Part shown: in pieces, positions 7,219 to 38,862 of the stretch
Numbering within the stretch: position 1 is the first letter of the stretch
How the letters are laid out: each line of letters starts with the position of its first letter
NCBI GenBank assembly: GCA_023475265.1
Contig: JAMCWE010000045.1
Span: 1 to 51,835 of the forward strand
Reading direction: 5' to 3'
DNA length: 51,835 nucleotides
Source of the DNA: Bacteroidota bacterium
GTDB taxonomy: Bacteria > Bacteroidota > Ignavibacteria > Ignavibacteriales > Ignavibacteriaceae
Program-made: the position numbers and the translations under genes
The notes under the pieces: generated by a model
Told to the model about the DNA's origin: nothing
Database searches by the model: none
Seen by the model: only the letters and a program-made list of their open reading frames with translations

Positions 7219-8493
7219 ATGAATAAACAGATACCAAAAACATTAATCGTAGGAATCAGCGTAACGGTAATTATCCTGCTGATAGTTTATCTATTTACTA
7301 AACTTCCTGCAGGAGGCGGAAAAACATCAACTGAACAGGTTTCTTACAGCGGCGCTGATAAATGCGCTACTTGCCACAAGCGTGTTACACCGGATATTGT
7401 CAACCAGTTCTCAATGAGCACTATGGCAAAAGCCGGTGTTAGGTGCGAAGACTGTCATGTCGTCGATAAGACAAATCCATCCGGTAAAAATCATGAAGGA
7501 TTTTTTATAACTGCATCGCCAACACCGATGCAATGCGCTAAATGTCATCCGGCTGAAACAAGACAGTTCGAACACAGCAGACATGGCGGGCCAGCCTGGG
7601 TTGCTTTATCAGGTTTATCTGACTTTATGCCTGAACAGCAAAAAGTTGTTGAGCAAATTCCGGAAGCCAACCGCGAGCCAAATGGAATTATTACTGCAAC
7701 TAGAAATTCATTATTTGATATCGAAGGTCCATCAGTTACTAAAGCTGCTTGCCAAACATGCCATTCGATTGGTAAGCCGAATGCCGACGGCTCTATCGGC
7801 AATTGCAGCAAGTGCCATCTTAGACATGAATTTTCACTTGGGCAAGTAAGAAAGCCTGAGATTTGCGGACAATGCCATCTTGGCCCGGATCATCCTCAAA
7901 TGGAAATTTACCACGAATCGGCGCACGGTGTAATTTATCAAACCGACGGTGATAAATTTAATTGGAAACAGAAAACCGGAAGATTAACAGTGAACGATAT
8001 GCCTTCACCAACATGCGCAACCTGCCATATGAGCGGCTTCGGCAATCAGGGTACAACACATGATGTCGGACAGCGGCTGTCTAAATTTTTATTTGCCGCA
8101 GTTACCAAAGACAGACCAAATGCAATCGAAGGCCGCGAAGCAATGAAAGCGATCTGCGCCAACTGTCATTCTTCAAACTTTGTGGATGAACAGTATGCGA
8201 AGGCAGACAGCGTTACCTCATTTGTAAATGCAAAAGTTTCCGAAGCATCGCAAATAATGCAGAGCCTTGTGAAAGACGGAATAATTTCAGATAAACCTTT
8301 CGCAAACCAGATCAGCTTTGATGCTTTCGACTTATGGCATTACTACGGTAGAACTGCAAAGTTTGGCGCTTATATGCAAGGTCCGGATTTTGTTCAATGG
8401 CACGGCATATATCCATTACTGAAGCAATTAACAAAAGTAAAAGAAGAAGCGGCAAGGCTTCGTTCCGAACATAGGAAAGGAGTAAAGCCATGA
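7219..8493 (+). CDS. Octaheme c-type cytochrome, hydroxylamine oxidoreductase-like
   Basis: A 424-residue exported cytochrome with an N-terminal hydrophobic anchor at about 8-27 and eight CXXCH motifs (CATCH at 49, then CEDCH, CAKCH, CQTCH, CSKCH, CGQCH, CATCH, CANCH). CGQCHLGPDHPQMEIYHES and the C-terminal GPDFVQWHGIYPL are hallmarks of the octaheme HAO family. Such proteins oxidise hydroxylamine or hydrazine, or, when the heme P460 tyrosine cross-link is missing, reduce nitrite or hydroxylamine. Whether the cross-linking Tyr exists here cannot be decided without an alignment. The retained N-terminal helix would tether it to the inner membrane. Its stop overlaps the start of the next gene (ATGA), a membrane protein that is probably its electron partner. 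Direction of catalysis is unproven. Confidence 0.9.
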   Translation: MNKQIPKTLIVGISVTVIILLIVYLFTKLPAGGGKTSTEQVSYSGADKCATCHKRVTPDIVNQFSMSTMAKAGVRCEDCHVVDKTNPSGKNHEGFFITASPTPMQCAKCHPAETRQFEHSRHGGPAWVALSGLSDFMPEQQKVVEQIPEANREPNGIITATRNSLFDIEGPSVTKAACQTCHSIGKPNADGSIGNCSKCHLRHEFSLGQVRKPEICGQCHLGPDHPQMEIYHESAHGVIYQTDGDKFNWKQKTGRLTVNDMPSPTCATCHMSGFGNQGTTHDVGQRLSKFLFAAVTKDRPNAIEGREAMKAICANCHSSNFVDEQYAKADSVTSFVNAKVSEASQIMQSLVKDGIISDKPFANQISFDAFDLWHYYGRTAKFGAYMQGPDFVQWHGIYPLLKQLTKVKEEAARLRSEHRKGVKP

Positions 8494-27541: not shown

Positions 27542-29593
27542 ATGTCGATTTTCAAATACAAATTTCCAGCATTTCTTTTTTCAATTTTATTCTTAGTTGG
27601 AATTATGTCTTCAACCTTTAGCCAATCTGAAGTCCAAGGAGATGAAATTAATAAAAAAGATATGGATCCGGCAGTAAGTCCGGCAACAGATTTCTTTGAA
27701 TACGTAAACGGTACCTGGTTGAAAAATACCGAAATACCGGCAGCTTACTCCGGCTGGGGTTCGTTTTATATTTTGGGAGATGAGAACTTAACCAAGCTAA
27801 AAAATATTTTAACCACTGTTGAAAAAAATACAAAAGTTAAAAAAGGCAGCAGTGAACAGTTTGTCGGCGATTTTTATTTCACCGGTATGGATAGCGCAAA
27901 CATCGAAAAGCAAGGTTACAAACCAATCGAAAAAGATTTGGAAGCTGTAAATGCGATAAAAGGAATAAAAGATTTCTACAAAGAATTAGCTCGTGTTCAA
28001 CTTGGATACTCAAATCCGTTGTTTGGATTCGGGGCCGGTACTGATGCAAAAAACAGCAAGATGAATATTGCACAATTACACCAAAGCGGATTGGGAATGC
28101 CTGACCGCGATTATTATCTTAAAGATGATCCAAGTACAAAAAGCATTCGGGAAGATTATGCTCAGCTAATTAAAAAATCTTTCATGCTTATTGGCTATGA
28201 TGATTCAAAAGCGGCAAAAAGTGCAGATGAAATTCTGAGTTTAGAAACTCAACTCGCCAAAGCTTCTATGCCGCGCGTTGAGATGAGAAATCCGAATAAG
28301 ACATATCATAAAATGACAGCAAAAGAATTAATCGGCCTTACACCGGATTTTAAGTGGAATGAATATTTCACCTTTATTGGAGTAAAGGGACCGCAAGATA
28401 TAAATGTTGCGCAGCCGGATTTCTTTAAAGAAATAAATAATATAGTAAATACTACTCCGATCGAAACACTGAAAGAATATTTGAAATGGAATATCATTCG
28501 AACAGCGGCTCCATATTTAAGCAACAATTTTGTTGAAACTGAATTTAACTTTTATGGAAAAGTTCTTAATGGAACAAAAGAAATGCAGCCGCGATGGAAA
28601 AGAGTTTTAGGAACTATAGATGGGCAAATCGGTATGGAACTCGGTAAATTATTTGTGAAAGAATATTTTCCGCCGTACGCAAAAAAGCGCGCTTTGGATT
28701 TAGTTCATAACTTGATGACTTCGCTAAAAACAAGAATTGAAAACCTTGAATGGATGAGTCCGGAAACAAAAAAGGCGGCATTGAAGAAACTATCTGCGTT
28801 TACTGTTAAAATAGGCTATCCGGATAAATGGAAAAGTTTTAAAGGATTAGTAATAAACAGAAATTCATATTTTGAAAATGTTTTAAGTGCATCAATTTTC
28901 AATACAAAAAAGAATTTGGCTAAGATCGGCAAGCCAGTAGATAAAACCGAATGGGGTATGACACCGCAAACTGTTAATGCTTATTACAATCCACCAAATA
29001 ATGAGATTGTTTTTCCAGCAGGAATTTTGCAGCCGCCATTCTTTAATCCAAAAGCAGATGATGCCATTAATTATGGTGGAATCGGATGCGTAATTGGTCA
29101 TGAAATGACGCACGGTTTTGATGATCAAGGAAGACAATATGATGCGTCAGGAAATTTAAAAGATTGGTGGACAAAACAGGACGAAGAAAATTTCAATAAA
29201 AGAGCGGAAGGAATTGTAAATCAATTTGATAATTATATTGCGGTAGATACATTACACGTGAACGGCAAATTAACTGAAGGAGAAAATATTGCGGATCTTG
29301 GCGGTGTTAATATTTCATTTGATTCCTTCAAAAAAACTAATGAATATAAAAGTGGTAAACCAATCGATGGTTTTACTCCCGCTCAAAGATTTTTCATTTC
29401 ATATGCAACCATTTGGAAGATAAAAAATAGACCTGAAAGATTAAGGCTTCGTGTTAAAGTTGATCCTCATTCGCCAGAACATTATAGAGTTGACGGACCT
29501 TTAAGCAACACACCCGCTTTTTGGCAAGCATTTAATGTAAAACCAGGCGACCCGATGAGAAGAACCGGTGATAAATTAGTTAAAATCTGGTAA
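27542..29593 (+). CDS. M13-family zinc metallopeptidase (neprilysin/PepO-like)
   Basis: A 683-residue exported endopeptidase. Signal peptide 1-27 (SSTFSQ). The M13 N-terminal helical domain starts with DMDPAVSPATDFFEYVNGTWL. The C-terminal catalytic domain has NAYY (479-482, substrate binding), zinc motif HEMTH (His520, Glu521, His524), the third zinc ligand Glu581 in ENIADLGG, and the terminal VDGPLSNTPAFWQAF ... DKLVKIW. All catalytic residues are present. It would cleave oligopeptides in the periplasm or outside. Single-gene unit with a hairpin after the stop. Confidence 0.95.
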   Translation: MSIFKYKFPAFLFSILFLVGIMSSTFSQSEVQGDEINKKDMDPAVSPATDFFEYVNGTWLKNTEIPAAYSGWGSFYILGDENLTKLKNILTTVEKNTKVKKGSSEQFVGDFYFTGMDSANIEKQGYKPIEKDLEAVNAIKGIKDFYKELARVQLGYSNPLFGFGAGTDAKNSKMNIAQLHQSGLGMPDRDYYLKDDPSTKSIREDYAQLIKKSFMLIGYDDSKAAKSADEILSLETQLAKASMPRVEMRNPNKTYHKMTAKELIGLTPDFKWNEYFTFIGVKGPQDINVAQPDFFKEINNIVNTTPIETLKEYLKWNIIRTAAPYLSNNFVETEFNFYGKVLNGTKEMQPRWKRVLGTIDGQIGMELGKLFVKEYFPPYAKKRALDLVHNLMTSLKTRIENLEWMSPETKKAALKKLSAFTVKIGYPDKWKSFKGLVINRNSYFENVLSASIFNTKKNLAKIGKPVDKTEWGMTPQTVNAYYNPPNNEIVFPAGILQPPFFNPKADDAINYGGIGCVIGHEMTHGFDDQGRQYDASGNLKDWWTKQDEENFNKRAEGIVNQFDNYIAVDTLHVNGKLTEGENIADLGGVNISFDSFKKTNEYKSGKPIDGFTPAQRFFISYATIWKIKNRPERLRLRVKVDPHSPEHYRVDGPLSNTPAFWQAFNVKPGDPMRRTGDKLVKIW

Positions 29594-30076
29594 TGTTTTT
29601 CTAAAAGACAAAGTGGTTTTGATGCCGATAAAATAAGCTCAGAACCACTTTATACTTAACAAAAATATGTTACAAATTATTACAACTACTTACGTATCGT
29701 TACTTTTTTCTTCAAAATTATTCTTTAGATTATTTTTTTCTCACTAGAGAAACTTTTATAATATTTTTATTCCCATGTTTTAGAAAAAATGCAATTGATC
29801 TTTTAAGTTAAATAATAAAATTGCACTCAAAAATGTTGGAACAATATTTGTTTTTGTTATAGAACTTAATGTCTACGCTCTAGGATCTACAAAATAATTC
29901 GACATATTCTTAATTCTGTTGACATATTTATACTCTTAAATTAGAGTGATAAAGGCTACGACATTGGATATTACTTTTGGCAATCTTTGTTTGCTAATTT
30001 TTTTTTGAAAGCTACAAAGAAAACCAAAATGCAGCACAATATAAATTTTTACATTAATTATTTTCGGAGGTTCTCA
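29594..30076. other. Intergenic region upstream of the cytochrome-porin gene
   Basis: About 480 bp, very AT-rich. It starts with a terminator-like hairpin (29611-29650). A TTGACA at 29918 is present but no good -10 is spaced from it. No gene was recognised; the open frame upstream of 30077 is in phase with the next gene but lacks coding character. Confidence 0.45.
29611..29650 (+). terminator. Hairpin after the M13 peptidase gene
   Basis: AAGTGGTTTTGA (29611-29622) pairs with TCAGAACCACTT (29639-29650) with one G-T wobble; 12-bp stem, 16-nt loop. It lies 18 bp past the stop. Confidence 0.65.
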
Positions 30077-31420
30077 ATGTATGCAAAAGTAAAGAACTTA
30101 AAAGTTTTTACTATTGTAATGGGGATATTAATTTTGTCATTTTCAAATGTTTCATATTCAATTCCAAGCTTTGCTCGACAAACAAATCTTCCTTGCAGTG
30201 CCTGCCACTATGTTTATCCAGAATTAACACCATTCGGAAGATTATTTAAACTAAATGGATATACGATGACTGGAATTGCAACCATTCAATCCACATATAA
30301 AGAGGATAACACTAATCTAAAACTTTTAAGCATGCTTCCCATATCAGCGATGATTCAGGGCTCGCATAATAAAATTGCAAAATCAATTCCAGGCGTTCAG
30401 AATGATGTAACAGAATTTCCGCAGCAATTTAGCTTGTTCATTGCTGGTGCGATCTCTCCAAATTTTGGTTCATTTATTCAAGTTACATATGATGATCAAT
30501 CAGGACAATTTGGTTTGGATAATACTGATCTAAGATTTGCTGACCATACTTTACTTTTTTCTAATGATTTGCTTTATGGTGTAACGTTAAATAATAATCC
30601 AACCGTTCAGGATGTTTGGAATACAACTCCGGCTTGGGGGTTTCCATATGTTTCATCGGCAGTGGCACCAACACCTGGCGCAAACCCAATTATTGGCGGA
30701 CTCGGAGGTTCTGTATCAGGCTTAGGCGCGTATGCACTTTATAATAATTTAATCTATGGAGAGTTTAGTCTTTATCATGTTACAAAATTAGGAGGACCAA
30801 TTCCGGAAACAATTATGGATTCAACAATGACGATGGCCGGTTATTCACCATACTGGCGTGTTGCTTTACAACAGCAATGGGAAACAGACTATCTGGAAAT
30901 TGGAACTTTTGGTATAGCTTCACAATTTTATCCGACAGGTATTAACGACAATAGTTCGGATAAATACACTGACATAGGTATTGATGCCCAATATGAAAAA
31001 ACTTTTGACAACGGAACATTAATTGCTCATACTTCTTACGTAACCGAAAAACAAACGCTTGATGCAACATATGCTGCCGGCGGTTCGGCAAATCCTTCGT
31101 TAAAATTAAATGCATTCAAATTTGATGCAAGTTATAATTTACCTGTAGGCGTAGCATTTTCACTTGGCTATTTTGCTACCAGTGGAGACAGCGATCCAAT
31201 TCTTTACGCGCCTGAAGCTGTTAGCGGTTATAATTCTAATCAGCCAAACAGCAGCGGCGTAACTGCACAAGTAACATATTTGCCATGGTTAAACACACAA
31301 TTTTCAGTTCAATATGTTTTATATAATAAATTTAATGGAAGCAGTTCTAACTATGACGGATCAGGTAGAAACGCTTCAGATAATAATACTTTATATGTTG
31401 TTGGCTGGGTAGTTTTTTAA
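30077..31420 (+). CDS. Cyc2-like fused monoheme cytochrome c / outer membrane porin
   Basis: A 447-residue protein from the ATG at 30077, which has a strong ribosome site (CGGAGG); the 30-residue upstream extension was rejected. Signal peptide 1-28 is followed by PSFARQTNLPCSACH (heme c ligands Cys40, Cys43, His44) and LTPFGRLFKLNGYT. This block is the signature of Cyc2 fused cytochrome-porins, as I recall it. The remaining about 370 residues alternate polar and aromatic strands and end in VVGWVVF, with a terminal Phe as in outer membrane beta-barrels. Cyc2 carries electrons across the outer membrane, best known from iron oxidation. Two monoheme cytochromes follow. Related cytochrome-porins of unknown role exist in Bacteroidota, so iron oxidation is not assumed. 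Confidence 0.85.
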   Translation: MYAKVKNLKVFTIVMGILILSFSNVSYSIPSFARQTNLPCSACHYVYPELTPFGRLFKLNGYTMTGIATIQSTYKEDNTNLKLLSMLPISAMIQGSHNKIAKSIPGVQNDVTEFPQQFSLFIAGAISPNFGSFIQVTYDDQSGQFGLDNTDLRFADHTLLFSNDLLYGVTLNNNPTVQDVWNTTPAWGFPYVSSAVAPTPGANPIIGGLGGSVSGLGAYALYNNLIYGEFSLYHVTKLGGPIPETIMDSTMTMAGYSPYWRVALQQQWETDYLEIGTFGIASQFYPTGINDNSSDKYTDIGIDAQYEKTFDNGTLIAHTSYVTEKQTLDATYAAGGSANPSLKLNAFKFDASYNLPVGVAFSLGYFATSGDSDPILYAPEAVSGYNSNQPNSSGVTAQVTYLPWLNTQFSVQYVLYNKFNGSSSNYDGSGRNASDNNTLYVVGWVVF

Positions 31421-31466
31421 TCACTTAAAAATTAGAAACGATTTATAATCACTTTAGGAGAAAATA

Positions 31467-31937
31467 ATGAAAGTAATATTTGGAATCTTAACTCTAACTT
31501 TGATCGCTTTTTTTGGCCTTAACAATAGTCATGCTTCAAGCAAGCTGGAAAACTCTTTTGCTAATCAAGATACAGTTAAGAGCCAGAAGAAAGCAGCGAC
31601 AGAAGAGGAAGTTGGAATCGGCCCTATTAAAGAAGTTACACTCGGGCCTATAAATGAAAAATTTGTAAATGAAGGTAAGAAAATATTTAACACTAAATGT
31701 ATGGCTTGCCATAGGCTTGATACAAAATTAGTAGGACCGGCTTTAAAACCGATAGTGAAAAAATTATCACCAGTGTATTTGATGAACTATTTATTAAACA
31801 CCACTGAAATGCAGAAAAAAGATCCAAAGTTGAAAAAATTAATTAAAGAATATAACGGTGTTGTAATGCCTGATCAGCAATTGAAAGAGCCGCAAGCTCG
31901 CGCTGTATTGGAATATTTTAGATCAATCGAAAAATAA
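31467..31937 (+). CDS. Exported monoheme cytochrome c (paralogue 1)
   Basis: A 156-residue class I cytochrome c. The signal peptide ends near residue 24. Heme motif CMACH (Cys78, Cys81, His82) and a likely axial Met134 in VVMPDQQL. A conserved block GIGPIKEVTLGPI lies between signal and heme domain and is shared with the lipoprotein cytochrome at 33526. It starts 46 bp after the cytochrome-porin with an AGGAG ribosome site, so it is a likely periplasmic partner passing electrons to or from that porin. A terminator follows. Confidence 0.92.
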   Translation: MKVIFGILTLTLIAFFGLNNSHASSKLENSFANQDTVKSQKKAATEEEVGIGPIKEVTLGPINEKFVNEGKKIFNTKCMACHRLDTKLVGPALKPIVKKLSPVYLMNYLLNTTEMQKKDPKLKKLIKEYNGVVMPDQQLKEPQARAVLEYFRSIEK

Positions 31938-31966
31938 ATTTTCAACTTAATTCGTTTCTCAATAAT

Positions 31967-31997
31967 AGGCGGCTATTATTAAGCCGCCTTTTTTTAT
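31967..31997 (+). terminator. Rho-independent terminator closing the cytochrome-porin unit
   Basis: AGGCGGCT (31967-31974), loop ATTATTA, AGCCGCCT (31982-31989), then a run of seven T. Confidence 0.92.
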
Positions 31998-32064
31998 TTG
32001 GAATAATATAACTGATAAGCTTTTTTATTAATTTGTTTAATATCATTAAAAATATTCGTGAACA

Positions 32065-33243
32065 ATGGAAAAATCTAAAACTCATATTTTAATATTTATT
32101 TTATTCTTGGGATTTATAATTCCAAGCTTTGCACAAAAAAGCGAAACAACTACGGAACAAATTTTTCCCGGAATAATTCGTGAAAGAATAATAAATAAAG
32201 AAGACAAGCTTGTTATTAATATTTTGCAAATTGATTTGAAAAGTAATCGCTATGAAATCGAAGCGATGAAAGCCAACAATTTTTTGAAATCCAAAGAGAC
32301 GACAAGTGAAATGTCGAAAAGAATTTCAAATGATGGACACAAAGTAATCGCGGCAATTAACGCTGACTTTTGGGATAATGACGGTGAAATTATTAATAAT
32401 ATGATTTCAAATGGAACCTTTATTAAAGCGATTGCAAATCACTCTGACGATAAACTTAATCGAATATTTTCTCAATTTGCCCTTACAACAAACAATAAAC
32501 CTTTGATAGAAAAATTTAACTTTGAAGGAAAATTATTTTTAAAAAACGGAACAATTGAAAAAGTTAATAGAATAAATTCCAAAACAGATAGCTCTTCAAT
32601 AACTTTATATAATTTTTATCAAGGGAATAAAACTCCAAAGATTCATAATGGCTGGCATGAATTTGATGTCGATCTGCAACCGCTCGCAAAGAACAGTGAT
32701 ACTTTAATTTTTATAGCCACAGATAAATTTTTAAATCAAGATCAAAATGAAATCCCCCAAAATGGATTTGTCCTTTCAGCATCAAATAATATTGCAGATA
32801 AACTTGAAAAAGAAATTTCAACTGGTGATACCGTTAAAGCTTTGCTCCAGTTATTTCCGGATGAAGGAAATATTTTTACATTAACTGGCGGACTTCCACA
32901 AATTGTTCTTGACGGAAAAAATTTAGCTGCAGAATCTGATACACTTGAAGGGACAAAGCCATCTTTTACAGTTACAAAACATCCTAGAACCGGAATTGGA
33001 TTTTCAAAAGACAGTACTATGCTTTACTTTTTTACGGTGGATGGAAGACAAGAATCAAGTTCGGGAATGTCATTAAAGGAATTTGCTAACTTAATGATAG
33101 ATCACAGTGTTTATCAAGGATTGAATCTTGATGGCGGTGGTTCAACAACTATGGTTATAAATGGAAAGTTAGTTAATCATCCGTCAGATATAACCGGAGA
33201 ACGCCCGGTTGGGAGTTGTTTGTTAGTTATTATGAAAAACTAA
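32065..33243 (+). CDS. Phosphodiester glycosidase family (NAGPA-like) exported protein
   Basis: A 392-residue protein with a signal peptide (cut after SFAQ, residue 23). The catalytic-domain signature of the NAGPA/DUF2233 family is present: AAINADFWDNDGE, KHPRTGIGFSKD, FTVDGRQESSSGMSLKEFA, and GLNLDGGGSTTM. The human uncovering enzyme removes GlcNAc from a phosphodiester; bacterial members are thought to cut sugar-phosphodiesters in cell-envelope polymers. It lies between two paralogous cytochrome c genes, but a terminator upstream suggests it has its own promoter; functional connection to them is not evident. Confidence 0.9.
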   Translation: MEKSKTHILIFILFLGFIIPSFAQKSETTTEQIFPGIIRERIINKEDKLVINILQIDLKSNRYEIEAMKANNFLKSKETTSEMSKRISNDGHKVIAAINADFWDNDGEIINNMISNGTFIKAIANHSDDKLNRIFSQFALTTNNKPLIEKFNFEGKLFLKNGTIEKVNRINSKTDSSSITLYNFYQGNKTPKIHNGWHEFDVDLQPLAKNSDTLIFIATDKFLNQDQNEIPQNGFVLSASNNIADKLEKEISTGDTVKALLQLFPDEGNIFTLTGGLPQIVLDGKNLAAESDTLEGTKPSFTVTKHPRTGIGFSKDSTMLYFFTVDGRQESSSGMSLKEFANLMIDHSVYQGLNLDGGGSTTMVINGKLVNHPSDITGERPVGSCLLVIMKN

Positions 33244-33525
33244 AATTAATTAACTGAAATAAATATCTTATCGAAGTGATTTTTAGAATATCCCTTTTCT
33301 AAGTCTAAAAATATTGTTACCTGATTTCAAAATCTTTCATAAATCTTCTTCAAAATTATTTCTAAATGCTTAACCTCACATTCAAGGTAAAAAGTATATT
33401 ATATCTTTAAGAAAAAAGATTTAGTAGTATTTAATTTTTACAATTCAAAAGTTGAAATTCTAACTTGATTAGCTTTAGAAAATATTGTTAAGGACTGTAC
33501 AACATTTTCTATTCCGGAGGATTTA

Positions 33526-34047
33526 ATGAAATTAAAAATTTTGATCTCTCTAATTATTGCAATTGCTTTCATAAATATTTCATGCACAAATAAGAAATAC
33601 GACGAACAAAAGCAGCCGGCACCGGATAATTCCGAATCAGCTCAAATGCAGCAAACACAATCAACAACTCCGGTACAAAATACGCCACCAGCTCCAACTT
33701 CGAAATATGAATTTCCGAATGACATGGGAGTGGGACCGGTTAAAGAAGTTACACTTGGACCAATTGATAAGAAGCTCGCCGCAGCCGGTGCGAAAATTTT
33801 TAATTCTAAATGCATAGCATGCCATCAGCTTGATACGAGGCTTGTCGGTCCTCCGCTTCGAAATATTACTAAGAAAAATACTCCTGAATTTATAATGAAT
33901 TATCTATTGAATACGACTGAAATGCAAAAGAAAGATCCGTTATTAATTAAGCTCGTTAATGAATATAAAATCATAATGCCGGATCAACAACTTTCTAAAG
34001 ATGATGCAAGAGGAGTTTTAGAATATTTCCGTTCAACTGAAAAATAA
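33526..34047 (+). CDS. Monoheme cytochrome c lipoprotein (paralogue 2)
   Basis: A 173-residue cytochrome with a lipoprotein signal (INISC, lipidated Cys20), a Pro/Gln/Ser/Thr-rich flexible linker (about 25-60), and a class I heme domain with CIACH (Cys96, Cys99, His100) and probable axial Met151 (IMPDQQL). From GVGPVKEVTLGPI to the final EYFRSTEK it is closely similar to the 31467 cytochrome, so the two arose by duplication. The lipid anchor plus linker would hold the heme at a membrane surface. A GGAGG ribosome site precedes the start. Confidence 0.92.
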   Translation: MKLKILISLIIAIAFINISCTNKKYDEQKQPAPDNSESAQMQQTQSTTPVQNTPPAPTSKYEFPNDMGVGPVKEVTLGPIDKKLAAAGAKIFNSKCIACHQLDTRLVGPPLRNITKKNTPEFIMNYLLNTTEMQKKDPLLIKLVNEYKIIMPDQQLSKDDARGVLEYFRSTEK

Positions 34048-34060
34048 AATTTGTTAAATA

Positions 34061-34106
34061 GAGAATGATGAGTCTGCACGGGTGGGCTTGCAGATTCTGA
34101 TTTCTC
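34061..34106 (+). terminator. Hairpin after the cytochrome lipoprotein gene
   Basis: GAGTCTGCA (34070-34078) pairs with TGCAGATTC (34089-34097, one G-T wobble); GAGAA (34061-34065) and TTCTC (34102-34106) can extend it. Pyrimidine-rich sequence follows. Confidence 0.6.
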
Positions 34107-34166
34107 TTTATTGTCTTAACTTAAATTATTTCCCCTTAAATTAATTTCATTTTTTATTTTATTCAT

Positions 34167-34192
34167 GCCCCTTTGTTTTTAAGCAAAGGGGC
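34167..34192. terminator. Perfect hairpin between convergent genes
   Basis: GCCCCTTTG (34167-34175) and CAAAGGGGC (34184-34192), 8-nt loop. It lies between the convergent cytochrome and Tricorn-like genes and may end both transcripts. Confidence 0.65.
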
Positions 34193-34204
34193 TGATAAAA
34201 TATT

Positions 34205-37200
34205 TTATTTAGATTTATCCGGATAAGGCGGCTTATGCAAATCTTTCGGAGGATTTAATTTTAGTTCATCTTTAATTACCTCAATTGCTTTTTCAAGCTG
34301 TTGATCATTTCCTTTTGCAAGTTCTGCCGGATTATCAGTTACTTCATAATCAGGATCAACACCGTAACCTTCAACTGTCCAATGCCCGGTTGTATCCCAA
34401 ATTCCAAAACTTGGTGCTGATAAAAATCCACCGTCAATCGGCTGCGGATTATCACCGTAACCAATCAGGCCTCCCCAGGTTCTTTTACCGATTAGCTTAC
34501 CAACTTTTTCTTCTTTGAAATAATACGGGAAAGCGTCACCGCCGGAGCCCGACCAGCCGTTAATCAACATTACTTTGGGACCAGGACAAGCAATCATCGG
34601 TGTTTGTCCGCTATGAAAATCGCGTCTTGCCCAATAACTTAAAACAGGACGATTCATCAATTCAACAAAGCGGTCCGGGATTTGCCCGCCGCTGTTAAAG
34701 CGCTCGTCAATTATCATTGCTTCTTTTTTATATTGAGCCGTATATTGGCGAACCAATTCACTTTGACCATCAGTGCCAGTATTAGGAACATACACATAAC
34801 CAACTTTACCATCGGTTTCTTTATCAACTTTTTCTCTGTTCGCTTCAATCCACGCAAGATTTCGTAATCTTGCTTCGCTTGATAAAGGTTTAACTAAAAC
34901 TTTCCTGGCGCCATCAAAAGTTGGTTTAGAATTTATTGTTAATGTAACCGCTTCATTTGCTAAACCTTGAAATGCTGCCCAGGGATCTTTTTTCGTATCA
35001 ACAGTTTGTCCATTTACTGCAAGCAGATAATCACCTTCTTTAACGTCAACGCCAGGATCTAAAAGCGGAGAACGAACTTCTATATCATCCCAAGGACCGC
35101 CTTTATAAATTTTCTTAATTCGGTAATAACCATTTGAGATTTCATAGTCGCATCCGAGCAAACCGACATTAATAGTTTTCGGCTGTTCCATATCACCGCC
35201 GCCAACATAAGTGTGGGAAGAATTTAATTCTGAAATCATTTCGCCAATTATGTAATTTAAATCGTTCCGATCGACAACATAAGGAAGAAGTGATTCATAA
35301 CGATTTTTTATAGCTTCCCAATTTACGCCATGCATTCCGGGATCGTAAAAATAATCTCGCTCAATCCGCCAAGCATCATTGAAAATTTCTTTCCATTCTT
35401 CACGCGGGTTTATCCATGTTTCCATTTTATCGGTTTCAATTTTTCCATCGCCAACTTTTTTACCGGCAGCAACATCTATTATTCCGTAAGTCGAGCCGCT
35501 CTTATAAATAATTTTTTTGCCACCGGCAGAAACTTCAAAACTATTTACACCGGAAATAATTTCTTTTGATTCTCTTTCTTTCAAATCATAATAATAAACG
35601 GAACCGGATGGCGAACCGGGCTTAGCAGCGCCTGCAGCAGGTTCTTTTTGATAAAGAACTTTTCCTTCAACTGCATAAAGCGATCCGAAATTACCAATAT
35701 CTATTGGAAGTTTTACTGTTCGCTGATCAATATTTTCAAAATCAATTTTGACCGGCTTTACACCTTCTGCAGATTTTTCTTTTTTATCTTCCTCTTTTTT
35801 TGATTTAGTAGTTTCCGTTTTCTTTTTTGAAGTGTCGGCTTTTACTGTTTCTTCATCATTTTGAGGAGCTAGAGGCGAAGCCCCGTCTTTCTGAAGAGTG
35901 ATGGCAATGATTGAAGTTGAATTCGGATAAATCCAAGTTGCGTCAACATCGCTGTAGACTGGATGAAAATTATCATTAGAAAAATAATAAAGATATTTCC
36001 CGCCCGGATCAAAAACCGGCGAGTTGCTGTTGTAATATCCTGTTGTTACCTGGTGAGTTTTTCCATCTTCTAAACCATAAATAAAAACCGCATAAGATAA
36101 TTCATTTACATTTTTATCATACACAATCCATTTGCTGTCAGGCGACCAATTATAATGAACATGAAAATCCCAATTATTTTTATCGACAAGCTTTGGTTTT
36201 CCGTCTGCAATGTTTACAACATAAATGCTTCCGGTTTTATCGCTGAATGCTATCGACTTGCTATCGGGAGACCATTGAGGATTATATCTGAAACAATGTC
36301 CATCGCGAGTAATTTGTTTTTCTTCTCCGCTTCCATCACCCGGACGAACATACAATTCATATTCGCCGGTCCTATCTGAAAAGTAAGCAACATATTTTCC
36401 GTCCGGCGACCAAGAAGGAAATCTTTCGGCAATACCGGAAGTATTTGTAAGATCTTGAACACTTCCATATTTTTCCGGAACAGTTAACACTTCGCCGCGA
36501 GCTCCAAATAAGGCGCGTTTACCGGTTGGTGAAAGTGAATAAGTATTTATTAATCCGGAAAGATTTTTTAACTGTGATCTATCCTGCGGTAAATCAGCGG
36601 GAACTTTAATTTCAACCGGGTGAGATTTTTCAGTTGCGAGATCAAGCAGGAATACTTCCCCGCCTTTTTCAAAAACAATATCATCAGTACCTAAACTTGG
36701 CCACTTAACGTCGAAATCGGTAAAGTGCGTAACTTCTTTCAATTGTTTCGTGGTTACATCATAAGCCCAAATATTTCCAATTTTATTTTCGTCTCTATCT
36801 GAAAGAAAATAAATTGTATTGTTATGCCACATCGGAACGGCGTCGCTAGCTTTATCAAATGTTATTTGTTCAGCCGAATTATTTTTAAAATCATAAATCC
36901 ATAGTTTGCTTGCCCAGCCGCCGCGATACCTTTTCCATGTTCTAAATTCAAGAGAAGCAGTTTCAAAAACCAATTTGCTTGCATCAGAATTGAACGAACC
37001 AATTTCTGCAACCTTCATTGGCAATTGTTCAGGCAAGCCGCCATCAATTGATTCCTTAAAAAGTCGATTGAATCTGTTTGATGGGCTGTACATTCCGGAG
37101 CGATAAAGAATATCTTTTCCATTAGGATACCAATCAACTACAAAATCAACGGAAGGATTATGAGTTAATCTTTTTGGAAAACCACCGATTGACGGCATAA

Positions 37201-37716: not shown

Positions 37717-38862
37717 ATGATTCACGCTAAATATTCGCACAGGTTTCTTTTATTAATATCCGGGATTTTAATTATACTTTCCTCGGCGGGATGGACTTTT
37801 GCTTATTCAAGTTCTTCATCCAATCCAAAGAAAAATAATTACAAGAGTGGAGGAGAAAAAACAACAGATGAAGTCTTTAAGAATATAAAAGTTCTTAAAG
37901 GTCTCCCGGCTTCGCAGTTAAATCCAACAATGCATTACTTCGAAGCTTCGCTTGGTTTTGATTGTTCTAATTGCCACGTACGCGGACACAACGACAGCGA
38001 CAAAAAACCAGAAAAAAGAAAAGCCCGCAAAATGATTGAGATGATGAATGTAATCAACAAAGATAATTTTGAAGGTAAACAGATAGTCACTTGCTATACA
38101 TGCCATCATGGTACTCCGGACCCACAAAAAATTCCTGCTGTAATGACTGAATCTATGATGAAAGAACAAAGAAATGAAAATAAGGAAGATGATATAATTA
38201 AAGTCCCGAACCGATTAAACACACCTGAAGAAATAATTTCAAAATACGAGCAGGCAATCGGTGGAAAAGAAGCATTTGAAAAAATAACTTCGCTTAAGTC
38301 GGAAGCATCTATTATTAATGCTAATGGAAGAAATTATCAAGTTACAATTATGCAGAAAGCACCAAATTTTTATTACTCTTCGATAAAACTTCCTTTCGGT
38401 CAATTTGAGAGGGGATATAACGGAACTACAGGTTGGATGAAAAATCCGCGTAATACGGAAGAACTAAAAGATGAGAATCTTCAAGACATTAAACTTGATG
38501 CTGATTTTTATGCGCCAATTGATTTCTTGAAAAATTATTCGGGATTAAAGTTTAGCGACGTCTCGGTAATTGACGGAGATACGGTTTATGTTGTAGAAGG
38601 CAAATCATCGGACATTAGAAGTTTCAAATTTTATTTCGATACTAAATCCGGATTGCTCGTTCGTCAAATTCAATTTGACAAAACACTGCTTGGAAGTCTA
38701 CAAACTCAAACTGATTTTAAAGACTATCGAAATGTAAGCGGAGTGTTATTCCCATTTGAACTTCATGTTGCTGATTACGAGCGTAATCAAGATATTAAAT
38801 TTTCAAACATTTCTTCAAACGCGACGATCGATAATAACATTTTCAATATGCCGGCTAAATAA
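37717..38862 (+). CDS. Diheme reaction-centre-type cytochrome c with a C-terminal LolA-like domain
   Basis: A 381-residue exported protein. Signal or anchor at about 9-30. The segment about 50-140 resembles the photosynthetic reaction-centre cytochrome subunit: KVLKGLPASQLNPTMHYFEASLGFDCSNCH (heme 1, Cys83/Cys86/His87) and VTCYTCHHG (heme 2, Cys126/Cys129/His130), each preceded by a helix with a Met that could be an axial ligand. Only two of the four hemes of the photosynthetic protein are present, and no other reaction-centre gene is seen, so a respiratory role is likely. Residues about 165-380 look like a beta-rich lipoprotein-sorting (LolA-like) domain. Start is preceded by AGAGG. Confidence 0.83.
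   Translation: MIHAKYSHRFLLLISGILIILSSAGWTFAYSSSSSNPKKNNYKSGGEKTTDEVFKNIKVLKGLPASQLNPTMHYFEASLGFDCSNCHVRGHNDSDKKPEKRKARKMIEMMNVINKDNFEGKQIVTCYTCHHGTPDPQKIPAVMTESMMKEQRNENKEDDIIKVPNRLNTPEEIISKYEQAIGGKEAFEKITSLKSEASIINANGRNYQVTIMQKAPNFYYSSIKLPFGQFERGYNGTTGWMKNPRNTEELKDENLQDIKLDADFYAPIDFLKNYSGLKFSDVSVIDGDTVYVVEGKSSDIRSFKFYFDTKSGLLVRQIQFDKTLLGSLQTQTDFKDYRNVSGVLFPFELHVADYERNQDIKFSNISSNATIDNNIFNMPAK

Follow-up and report, generated by a model that had tools for sequence, protein, structure and literature searches.

Which kind of electron conduit, if any, is encoded at positions 30,077 to 31,937 of a stretch of Ignavibacteriaceae DNA, and in which direction would it carry electrons? The stretch (hereafter the window) is the forward strand of contig JAMCWE010000045.1, positions 1 to 51,835, from Bacteroidota bacterium assembly GCA_023475265.1, and the locus holds a gene for a fused cytochrome-porin followed by a gene for a small monoheme cytochrome. 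The window is contig 72 of a genome of 4.77 Mb in 270 contigs (96.8% complete, 3.7% contamination). A first-pass annotation, made from the letters alone, had likened the larger protein to Cyc2, which moves electrons through the outer membrane, and had proposed the smaller one as its partner. The statement we arrive at is that of a Cyc2-family outer-membrane cytochrome-porin of the type found in rusticyanin/oxidase clusters, with a dedicated periplasmic monoheme partner and inward electron flow; taken as a whole, we consider it a little better than an even prospect, and its parts differ in strength. What computation establishes is the heme motif, the homology, a barrel predicted to have 16 long strands, and a conserved pairing of the two genes.

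The cytochrome-porin: heme segment and predicted barrel

The features of the cytochrome-porin gene, with the evidence for each, are as follows.

30066..30070, forward strand: GGAGG ribosome-binding site of the cytochrome-porin gene (sequence; GGAGGT identical in 7 of 7 aligned upstream regions)
30077..31420, forward strand: Cyc2-family fused cytochrome-porin, 447 amino acids (sequence, alignment, profile, tree, predicted fold, motif shuffles)
30077..30160, forward strand: presumed Sec signal peptide, residues 1-28, ending in SYS ahead of IPSFAR (read by eye)
30161..30262, forward strand: heme-binding N-terminal segment, residues 29-62, with PSFARQT, C40-x2-C43-H44, P48-E-L50 and FGRLFKLNGY (alignment of 66 rows)
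30341..31417, forward strand: predicted barrel of 16 long strands, residues 89-447, with C-terminal Phe (structure model, structure search, alignment)

The open reading frame starts at the ATG at 30077, and the frame is also open up to a TTG at 29987. From the ATG the protein begins IPSFARQTNLPCSACHYVYPELTPFGRLFKLNGYT, with an n- and h-region that, judged by eye, are typical of a signal peptide, and it contains a single CXXCH (residues 40-44), as does every one of the 66 aligned rows. The protein was therefore correctly described at first pass as 447 residues with one CSACH site and PSFARQT. The Cyc2 screen of Keffer et al. asks for PXFAR[Q/K][T/Y] before CXXCH in a protein of at least 365 residues, with AXPXFAR as a longer consensus outside the screen, and the same authors describe a PXL motif four residues past the CXXCH and a fused porin (PMC8406198). 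Here PSFARQT is followed by three residues and then CSACH, the length is well within range at 447 residues, and PEL follows with P48 as the fourth residue past H44; the longer consensus is broken by Ser in place of its first Ala. The exact form of the screen motif is carried by 34 of the 66 aligned rows and a relaxed form by all 66, among which P30, Q35, T36, C40, C43, H44, P48, L50, G54, F57, K58 and G61 are invariant. When the window protein was shuffled, none of 200,000 shuffles contained the spaced motif PxFAR[QK][TY]-x3-CxxCH-x3-PxL.

Searches of NCBIfam and of PDB sequences with the cytochrome-porin gave no match, and the sole Pfam match, WW_2 at E 0.07, is below threshold and meaningless. 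Promoter-like matches stand at chance level (21 observed, 21.0 expected), and an Rfam scan of the leader returned nothing above threshold. Two short blocks lie upstream of the gene, at 29873-29890 and 29946-29965, close to CTACGCTTTAGGATCTAC and GTGATAAAGGCAACGACATT with one mismatch each, and similar blocks recur upstream of the orthologue in L062, L063 and L070 with at most two and at most three mismatches, respectively.

A structure model built from 66 sequences (predicted local distance difference test score 88.9, predicted template modelling score 0.84) places a helical N-terminal segment with the heme motif ahead of a barrel with 16 strands of at least nine residues (residues 89-446), four short strands of 3-6 residues being left uncounted; it supersedes a first model from 21 sequences, which also had 16 strands at a score of 58 on the first of these measures. 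The barrel-like remainder proposed at first pass, for which 14-18 strands were expected, is thus borne out by the prediction. Foldseek returned 255 matches to the model at E <= 0.001, and among the 50 matches listed nearly all are porins; a second structure comparison (VIA) put tied porins at the top, led by OprP (Z 22.0) and OprO (Z 21.8). OprO and OprP are the structures that Keffer et al. name for Cyc2 (PMC8406198), and PDB entry 5O78, named for the Cyc2 of A. ferrooxidans (PMC10654088), is also among the structure matches listed for the window protein.

The last residue is Phe in 61 of 66 aligned homologues. A terminal Phe is expected of outer-membrane barrels, and with the porin fold it agrees with the predicted outer-membrane location. 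Hydrophobicity alternation along the strands is weak and uneven, and we therefore exclude it from the evidence. Met92, in the first strand, is at most a candidate distal heme ligand; 63 of 66 family rows have this residue, as do two of the three rusticyanin-cluster and plasmid rows described below, whereas the position is V, I or L in 21/21 RQT-type proteins of Chlorobia and R or K in 11/11 FARKY-type proteins of Ignavibacteria.

A common fold leaves function unshown. Being that of substrate porins, it lends some support to a non-energetic role in which the heme segment is a redox-sensing or iron-detoxifying plug that gates a small-solute porin; detoxification has been raised for Cyc2 (PMC10734525). 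We regard such a gate as very improbable, since pairing with periplasmic cytochromes is conserved and a paralogue is paired with a quinone-type complex (both below). A multiheme conduit of the MtrAB type was considered and rejected because the protein holds one heme and 16 long strands: MtrAB, MtoAB and Pcc resemble the predicted system in that a barrel carries electrons through the outer membrane, but in them the barrel is larger and the cytochrome is a multiheme protein of its own (PMC10654088), whereas the window protein has its one heme fused to a predicted barrel of 16 strands. That the window protein is a Cyc2-family cytochrome-porin is, in our judgement, highly probable.

Relationship to known Cyc2 types

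Relatives were collected by a tblastn scan of one genome per species (E <= 1e-3, reckoned against the candidate stretches), from which the best 80 of 544 were kept. Sorted by record title, they comprise 48 loci of Bacteroidota type, 16 from Gemmatimonadota, 12 proteobacterial and four others. Chlorobia references were picked by the presence of the FMO protein, found in 95 of 395 genomes of a phylum draw; 80 of these 95 were searched, and 51 of the 80 gave a Cyc2-type match (E <= 0.001), the best at 83.4 bits. FMO-bearing Chlorobia often hold several Cyc2-type matches, up to five per genome and of at least two deep types (e.g. G141, G219, G260, G300). Our rusticyanin-cluster reference, L203, is a gammaproteobacterial cluster with Cyc2, CoxB-like, CoxA-like, heme A synthase-like, rusticyanin-family and SCO-like genes; the CoxB-like and SCO-like labels are read from sequence, and the others all score below their NCBIfam cut-offs (CoxA 435 of 671 bits, heme A synthase 42 of 550, rusticyanin 135-137 of 146.7). 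Two plasmid homologues, from Acidiphilium and Caballeronia, served as further references. A plasmid record labelled A. ferrooxidans was dropped, its identity, E-value and bit score being equal to those of the Acidiphilium plasmid, and among the genomes in which the Cyc2 of A. ferrooxidans was sought, G638 holds the top-scoring rusticyanin, but its cluster is truncated where the contig ends, and it gave no profile match. The annotated start of the Caballeronia homologue (L147:3941-5278) lies past the heme site, and in that form it entered the profile and the tree; upstream of that start the open frame contains ALPAFARQTGLACVACH and continues through a signal peptide and the Cyc2 motif, and the start given in the public record is thus probably incorrect.

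Against our own family profile, used as a substitute Cyc2 profile, these references fall far apart. The rusticyanin-cluster Cyc2 scores 430 bits, the Caballeronia protein 423 and the Acidiphilium protein 386, whereas 21 RQT-type proteins of Chlorobia score 59-82 bits, and 18 FARKY-type proteins (7 from Chlorobia, 11 from Ignavibacteria) together with two other Cyc2-type paralogues of this genome score 47-68 bits. BLAST alignments to the first three run to the end of the protein and all others stop by residue 194; that to the rusticyanin-cluster Cyc2, with CoxA-like and rusticyanin-family genes near it, has 35% identity over residues 10-447. The part common to the Chlorobia and other Cyc2-type proteins is thus the N-terminal one. 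A further 80 gammaproteobacterial genomes yielded 11 with a match, in two score sets: 361-637 bits, comprising full-length sequences and long fragments, and 46-83 bits, comprising short N-terminal matches, an extra 50-bit fragment belonging to a long match. In a quick maximum-likelihood tree of 107 sequences, which carries long-branch and unusual-composition warnings, the window family falls together with all three references on one side of a branch with a Shimodaira–Hasegawa-like approximate likelihood ratio test (SH-aLRT) value of 98, and the Chlorobia and FARKY-like proteins lie apart from them. The Cyc2 identity claimed at first pass, and left to a profile and a tree to decide, is upheld by both, with full-length homology to rusticyanin-cluster Cyc2 in the one and placement beside it in the other.

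On alignment, profile and tree, then, the window protein groups over its full length with the type of Cyc2 found in the rusticyanin/oxidase cluster, and not with the Chlorobia RQT or FARKY-like types. It is probably 'Cluster 2' of McAllister/Keffer, the reference used being one rusticyanin-cluster Cyc2 and not that of A. ferrooxidans itself; given this and the long-branch warnings, we keep the label at rusticyanin-cluster type, probably Cluster 2. With Cyc2 of the A. ferrooxidans type, from rusticyanin/aa3-oxidase clusters, the window system shares one N-terminal heme, a predicted 16-strand porin and an adjoining cytochrome gene; it differs in that the partner is a monoheme class-I cytochrome and not diheme Cyc1, that no rusticyanin or oxidase genes are seen alongside in the window, and that the host gave no RuBisCO match. 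The N-terminal heme motif and porin layout are shared with Cluster 1 Cyc2 (Mariprofundus, Gallionellaceae, Chlorobium), with which we would equate the Chlorobia RQT proteins from the literature; this proxy, however, aligns to the window protein only as far as residue 194. The heme motif and general plan are likewise shared with Cluster 3 Cyc2/Cyt572, to which the FARKY-like proteins may be tied, but their match to the window protein is confined to the N-terminal part.

The probable monoheme partner and a paralogue beside a Qrc-like complex

Downstream of the cytochrome-porin gene lie the following features.

31467..31937, forward strand: partner gene for a periplasmic monoheme class-I cytochrome c, 156 amino acids (PF00034 41.1 bits, cut-off 21.3; alignment)
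31967..31989, forward strand: terminator-like hairpin followed by a T-run (hairpin scan)
32065..33243, forward strand: phosphodiester glycosidase (NAGPA) gene between the two monoheme genes (PF09992 114.7 bits)
33526..34047, forward strand: second, paralogous monoheme cytochrome, 173 amino acids, with a lipoprotein-like Cys (INISC) (PF00034 41.1 bits; alignment)

The monoheme gene starts 46 bp past the cytochrome-porin gene, and the hairpin beyond it has the most pairs of the five hairpins in 29590-34210 (shuffles average 2.3), in agreement with the small cytochrome and the shared terminator proposed at first pass. In an alignment of 47 members of the monoheme family C78, C81, H82 and M134 are the same in all 47, and M115 in 46; M134 is the putative distal heme ligand of the partner cytochrome. 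The two monoheme proteins of the window are identical at 80 of 154 aligned positions, and the Cys past the signal of the second, a protein absent from the first-pass annotation, looks like a lipid anchor. The intervening NAGPA gene is not constant, the second monoheme gene following directly on the first in L046 and L047. Elsewhere in the window, 7219-8493 encodes a 424-residue protein with eight CXXCH, and 37717-38862 a 381-residue protein with two, a gene like the latter also occurring near the cytochrome-porin in L045 and L046.

Within the genus the monoheme gene lies downstream of the cytochrome-porin gene at nine of ten loci, the tenth (L068) ending at a contig edge. To count pairing more widely we took as a partner any c-type cytochrome of at most 260 residues with one or two CXXCH, on the same strand and at most 400 bp away, and as a control other open reading frames of at least 250 residues lying at least 3.5 kb off in the same loci. 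Of the 48 Bacteroidota-type loci, 35 have such a small cytochrome gene as a neighbour, on the downstream side in 24 and on the upstream side in 11, compared with 4 of 369 controls; the count is slightly low, the monoheme gene of L071 and L081 lying just beyond the distance limits. Such a neighbour is also present at four of 12 proteobacterial loci, all four with two CXXCH, resembling the diheme Cyc1 of A. ferrooxidans, which adjoins Cyc2 (PMC10654088, PMC7029218). We are confident, short of certainty, that the monoheme protein is the redox partner of the cytochrome-porin.

The genome holds four Cyc2-family genes, the window gene included. The closest paralogue (55% identity) lies on contig 116, in an operon-like run (L042:1225-10785) that begins with a response regulator, the cytochrome-porin, a monoheme cytochrome, a pentaheme cytochrome, a molybdopterin-type protein, an FeS protein and an NrfD-type membrane protein, and ends with a small protein, a four-CXXCH protein and a carboxypeptidase-regulatory-like-domain protein with a sub-threshold copper-binding match. 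In NCBIfam the first three subunits of the complex are matched best by QrcA, QrcB and QrcC, and the NrfD-type protein by DsrP ahead of QrcD. The scores for QrcA-D all lie below their cut-offs (95 of 180, 246 of 440, 270 of 400 and 47 of 570 bits), and we therefore term the complex Qrc-like and not Qrc. It resembles Qrc and alternative complex III (ACIII) in its pentaheme, MopB, FeS and NrfD-type subunits in the order A-B-C-D, and differs from Qrc, beyond these scores, in the leading cytochrome-porin and monoheme genes and in the extra four-CXXCH and carboxypeptidase-regulatory-like-domain proteins.

Among the neighbours listed for the 80 loci, the MopB type of contig 116 recurs in 10 (L074-L080, L082, L092 and L112). 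In the first nine it sits in a run behind monoheme and pentaheme genes (L078 and L082 ending within the run), and in L112, from Nitrospirae, it follows intervening open reading frames, without a monoheme gene. Immediately upstream of the run, contig 116 and seven of the nine loci encode a stand-alone response-regulator domain. The two remaining Cyc2-type genes of the genome, L043:7603-8793 (contig 82) and L044:5502-6776 (contig 145), carry FSRKY and WARKT and resemble the window protein in the heme segment alone; the gene on contig 145 is followed by genes for a 119-residue monoheme protein and an eight-CXXCH protein. In a different arrangement, seen within the taxonomic order at L058:5791-8342, L059:5710-8251, L060:4678-7363 and L061:5354-7855, a 440-457-residue protein with four to five CXXCH lies directly upstream of a FARKY-type Cyc2-like porin, and these pairs are possibly a separate multiheme/monoheme conduit.

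The window gene is present in 10 of 12 other genomes of the genus at 82-94% identity, a 55-59% paralogue in six of the 12, and neither in one. Across a class draw of 294 genomes, this one included, a match at E <= 1e-30 occurs in 26, spread over 6 of 151 genera, so the distribution in the class is patchy. Cyc2 homologues in Ignavibacteriaceae and Ignavibacteriales bins are already in print (PMC6344600, PMC8478452), and the window gene is a genuine addition to a known protein type. Our searches of the open-access literature brought up neither the monoheme pairing nor any Cyc2 gene that shares an operon with a Qrc-like complex, which is weak evidence of novelty in both cases; the Qrc-linked paralogue is the best lead.

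Direction of electron flow and identity of the donor

In the mechanism we propose, the heme segment would sit as a plug in the barrel's periplasmic mouth. A reduced donor in solution, likeliest Fe(II), would enter the pore and pass a single electron to the heme, from which the monoheme cytochrome would take it on to an oxidase or nitrite reductase; the paralogue in the Qrc-like operon may form a second branch that either supplies the quinone pool or is supplied by it. A search of the genome gave one COX1-type oxidase match, near which genes are read as cox and, tentatively, as ACIII-like, and the genome also encodes a copper nitrite reductase, NirK (330 bits, cut-off 296), with a fused C-terminal cytochrome c domain (L236:5172-6668, contig 240). 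Cyc2 and ACIII co-occur in iron oxidisers (PMC4643136). A RuBisCO search of this genome gave no match, and because of this, extra energy for a heterotroph is a more likely gain than autotrophy.

Two points favour inward flow, which we judge moderately probable: all three Cyc2 proteins named as having tested activity in one study oxidise Fe(II) (PMC8406198), and Qrc is described as a menaquinone reductase (PMC4643136). For the Mariprofundus protein a potential of 208 mV is given (PMC8406198). That Fe(II) is the main donor we put at an even chance. Cyc2 has also been proposed as a Mn(II) route in Ca. Manganitrophaceae (PMC9040806), and one homologue, L094, comes from a Melioribacter record named Mn-Melioribacter-1, which would suit an inward conduit with a donor other than iron, such as Mn(II) or reduced humics. 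The window sequence gives no pointer to Mn, however, and a record name is no evidence of activity, and we consider such a conduit for a non-iron donor quite improbable.

Outward flow is the stronger competitor. Electrons would then leave menaquinol by way of the Qrc-like complex or some other carrier, reach the monoheme cytochrome, and exit via the cytochrome-porin to humics, Fe(III) chelates or another cell. The paralogue's sharing of an operon with a quinone-type complex speaks for such a path, as do the listing of Ignavibacteriaceae, with Cyc2 homologues of their own, as Fe(III)/humic reducers (PMC6344600) and the statement of He et al. that Cyc2 may serve extracellular electron transfer beyond Fe(II) oxidation (PMC5566968). 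It sits badly, though, with the activity of the three tested members, and with the placing of the single Cyc2 heme at the periplasmic mouth, from which a dissolved and not a solid partner is expected (PMC8406198). Qrc as a menaquinone reductase likewise points inward, though the same passage has ACIII and Qrc, as a group, working in either direction (PMC4643136). We hold outward flow to be unlikely.

Several observations nonetheless count against our preferred statement of a partnered, inward-flowing conduit. A linked quinone complex can run either way. Cyc2 homologues occur in many bacteria not known as iron oxidisers (PMC5566968), Ignavibacteriaceae are among named Fe(III)-reducing taxa (PMC6344600), and in the portions of the open-access literature searched we found no activity, location or potential for members from the window's bacterial group. 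There is no adjoining small cytochrome at 15 of 16 Gemmatimonadota, 8 of 12 proteobacterial and all four other loci, the full-length Gemmatimonadota homologues (16 records among L105-L140) including one with such a gene, and 29 of the 40 loci without a partner have at least 900 bp on either side. Finally, the rusticyanin-cluster reference is a single one (L203), whose rusticyanin and CoxA miss their NCBIfam cut-offs.

A bolder proposal, which we hold only tentatively and think somewhat unlikely, is a split respiration through one-heme conduits, in which two full-length porin paralogues each have their own monoheme protein, the window pair forming the branch to oxidase or nitrite reductase and the Qrc-linked pair coupling directly to menaquinone. 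If true, this would be a reversible single-heme lithotrophic energy route for heterotrophic Ignavibacteria, corresponding, with monoheme proteins, to the downhill/uphill fork known from A. ferrooxidans. Both gene sets are small and expressible, and allow the direction of a one-heme conduit to be measured.

Cyc2 serves as a marker of iron oxidation, and the window gene is near-constant in a genus in which the one genome searched gave no RuBisCO match. A Cyc2 match in a metagenome can stand for any of several deeply divergent kinds of protein, a single Chlorobia genome giving as many as five matches, and, as the FMO-bearing Chlorobia with several types suggest, such a match alone may overstate iron oxidation.

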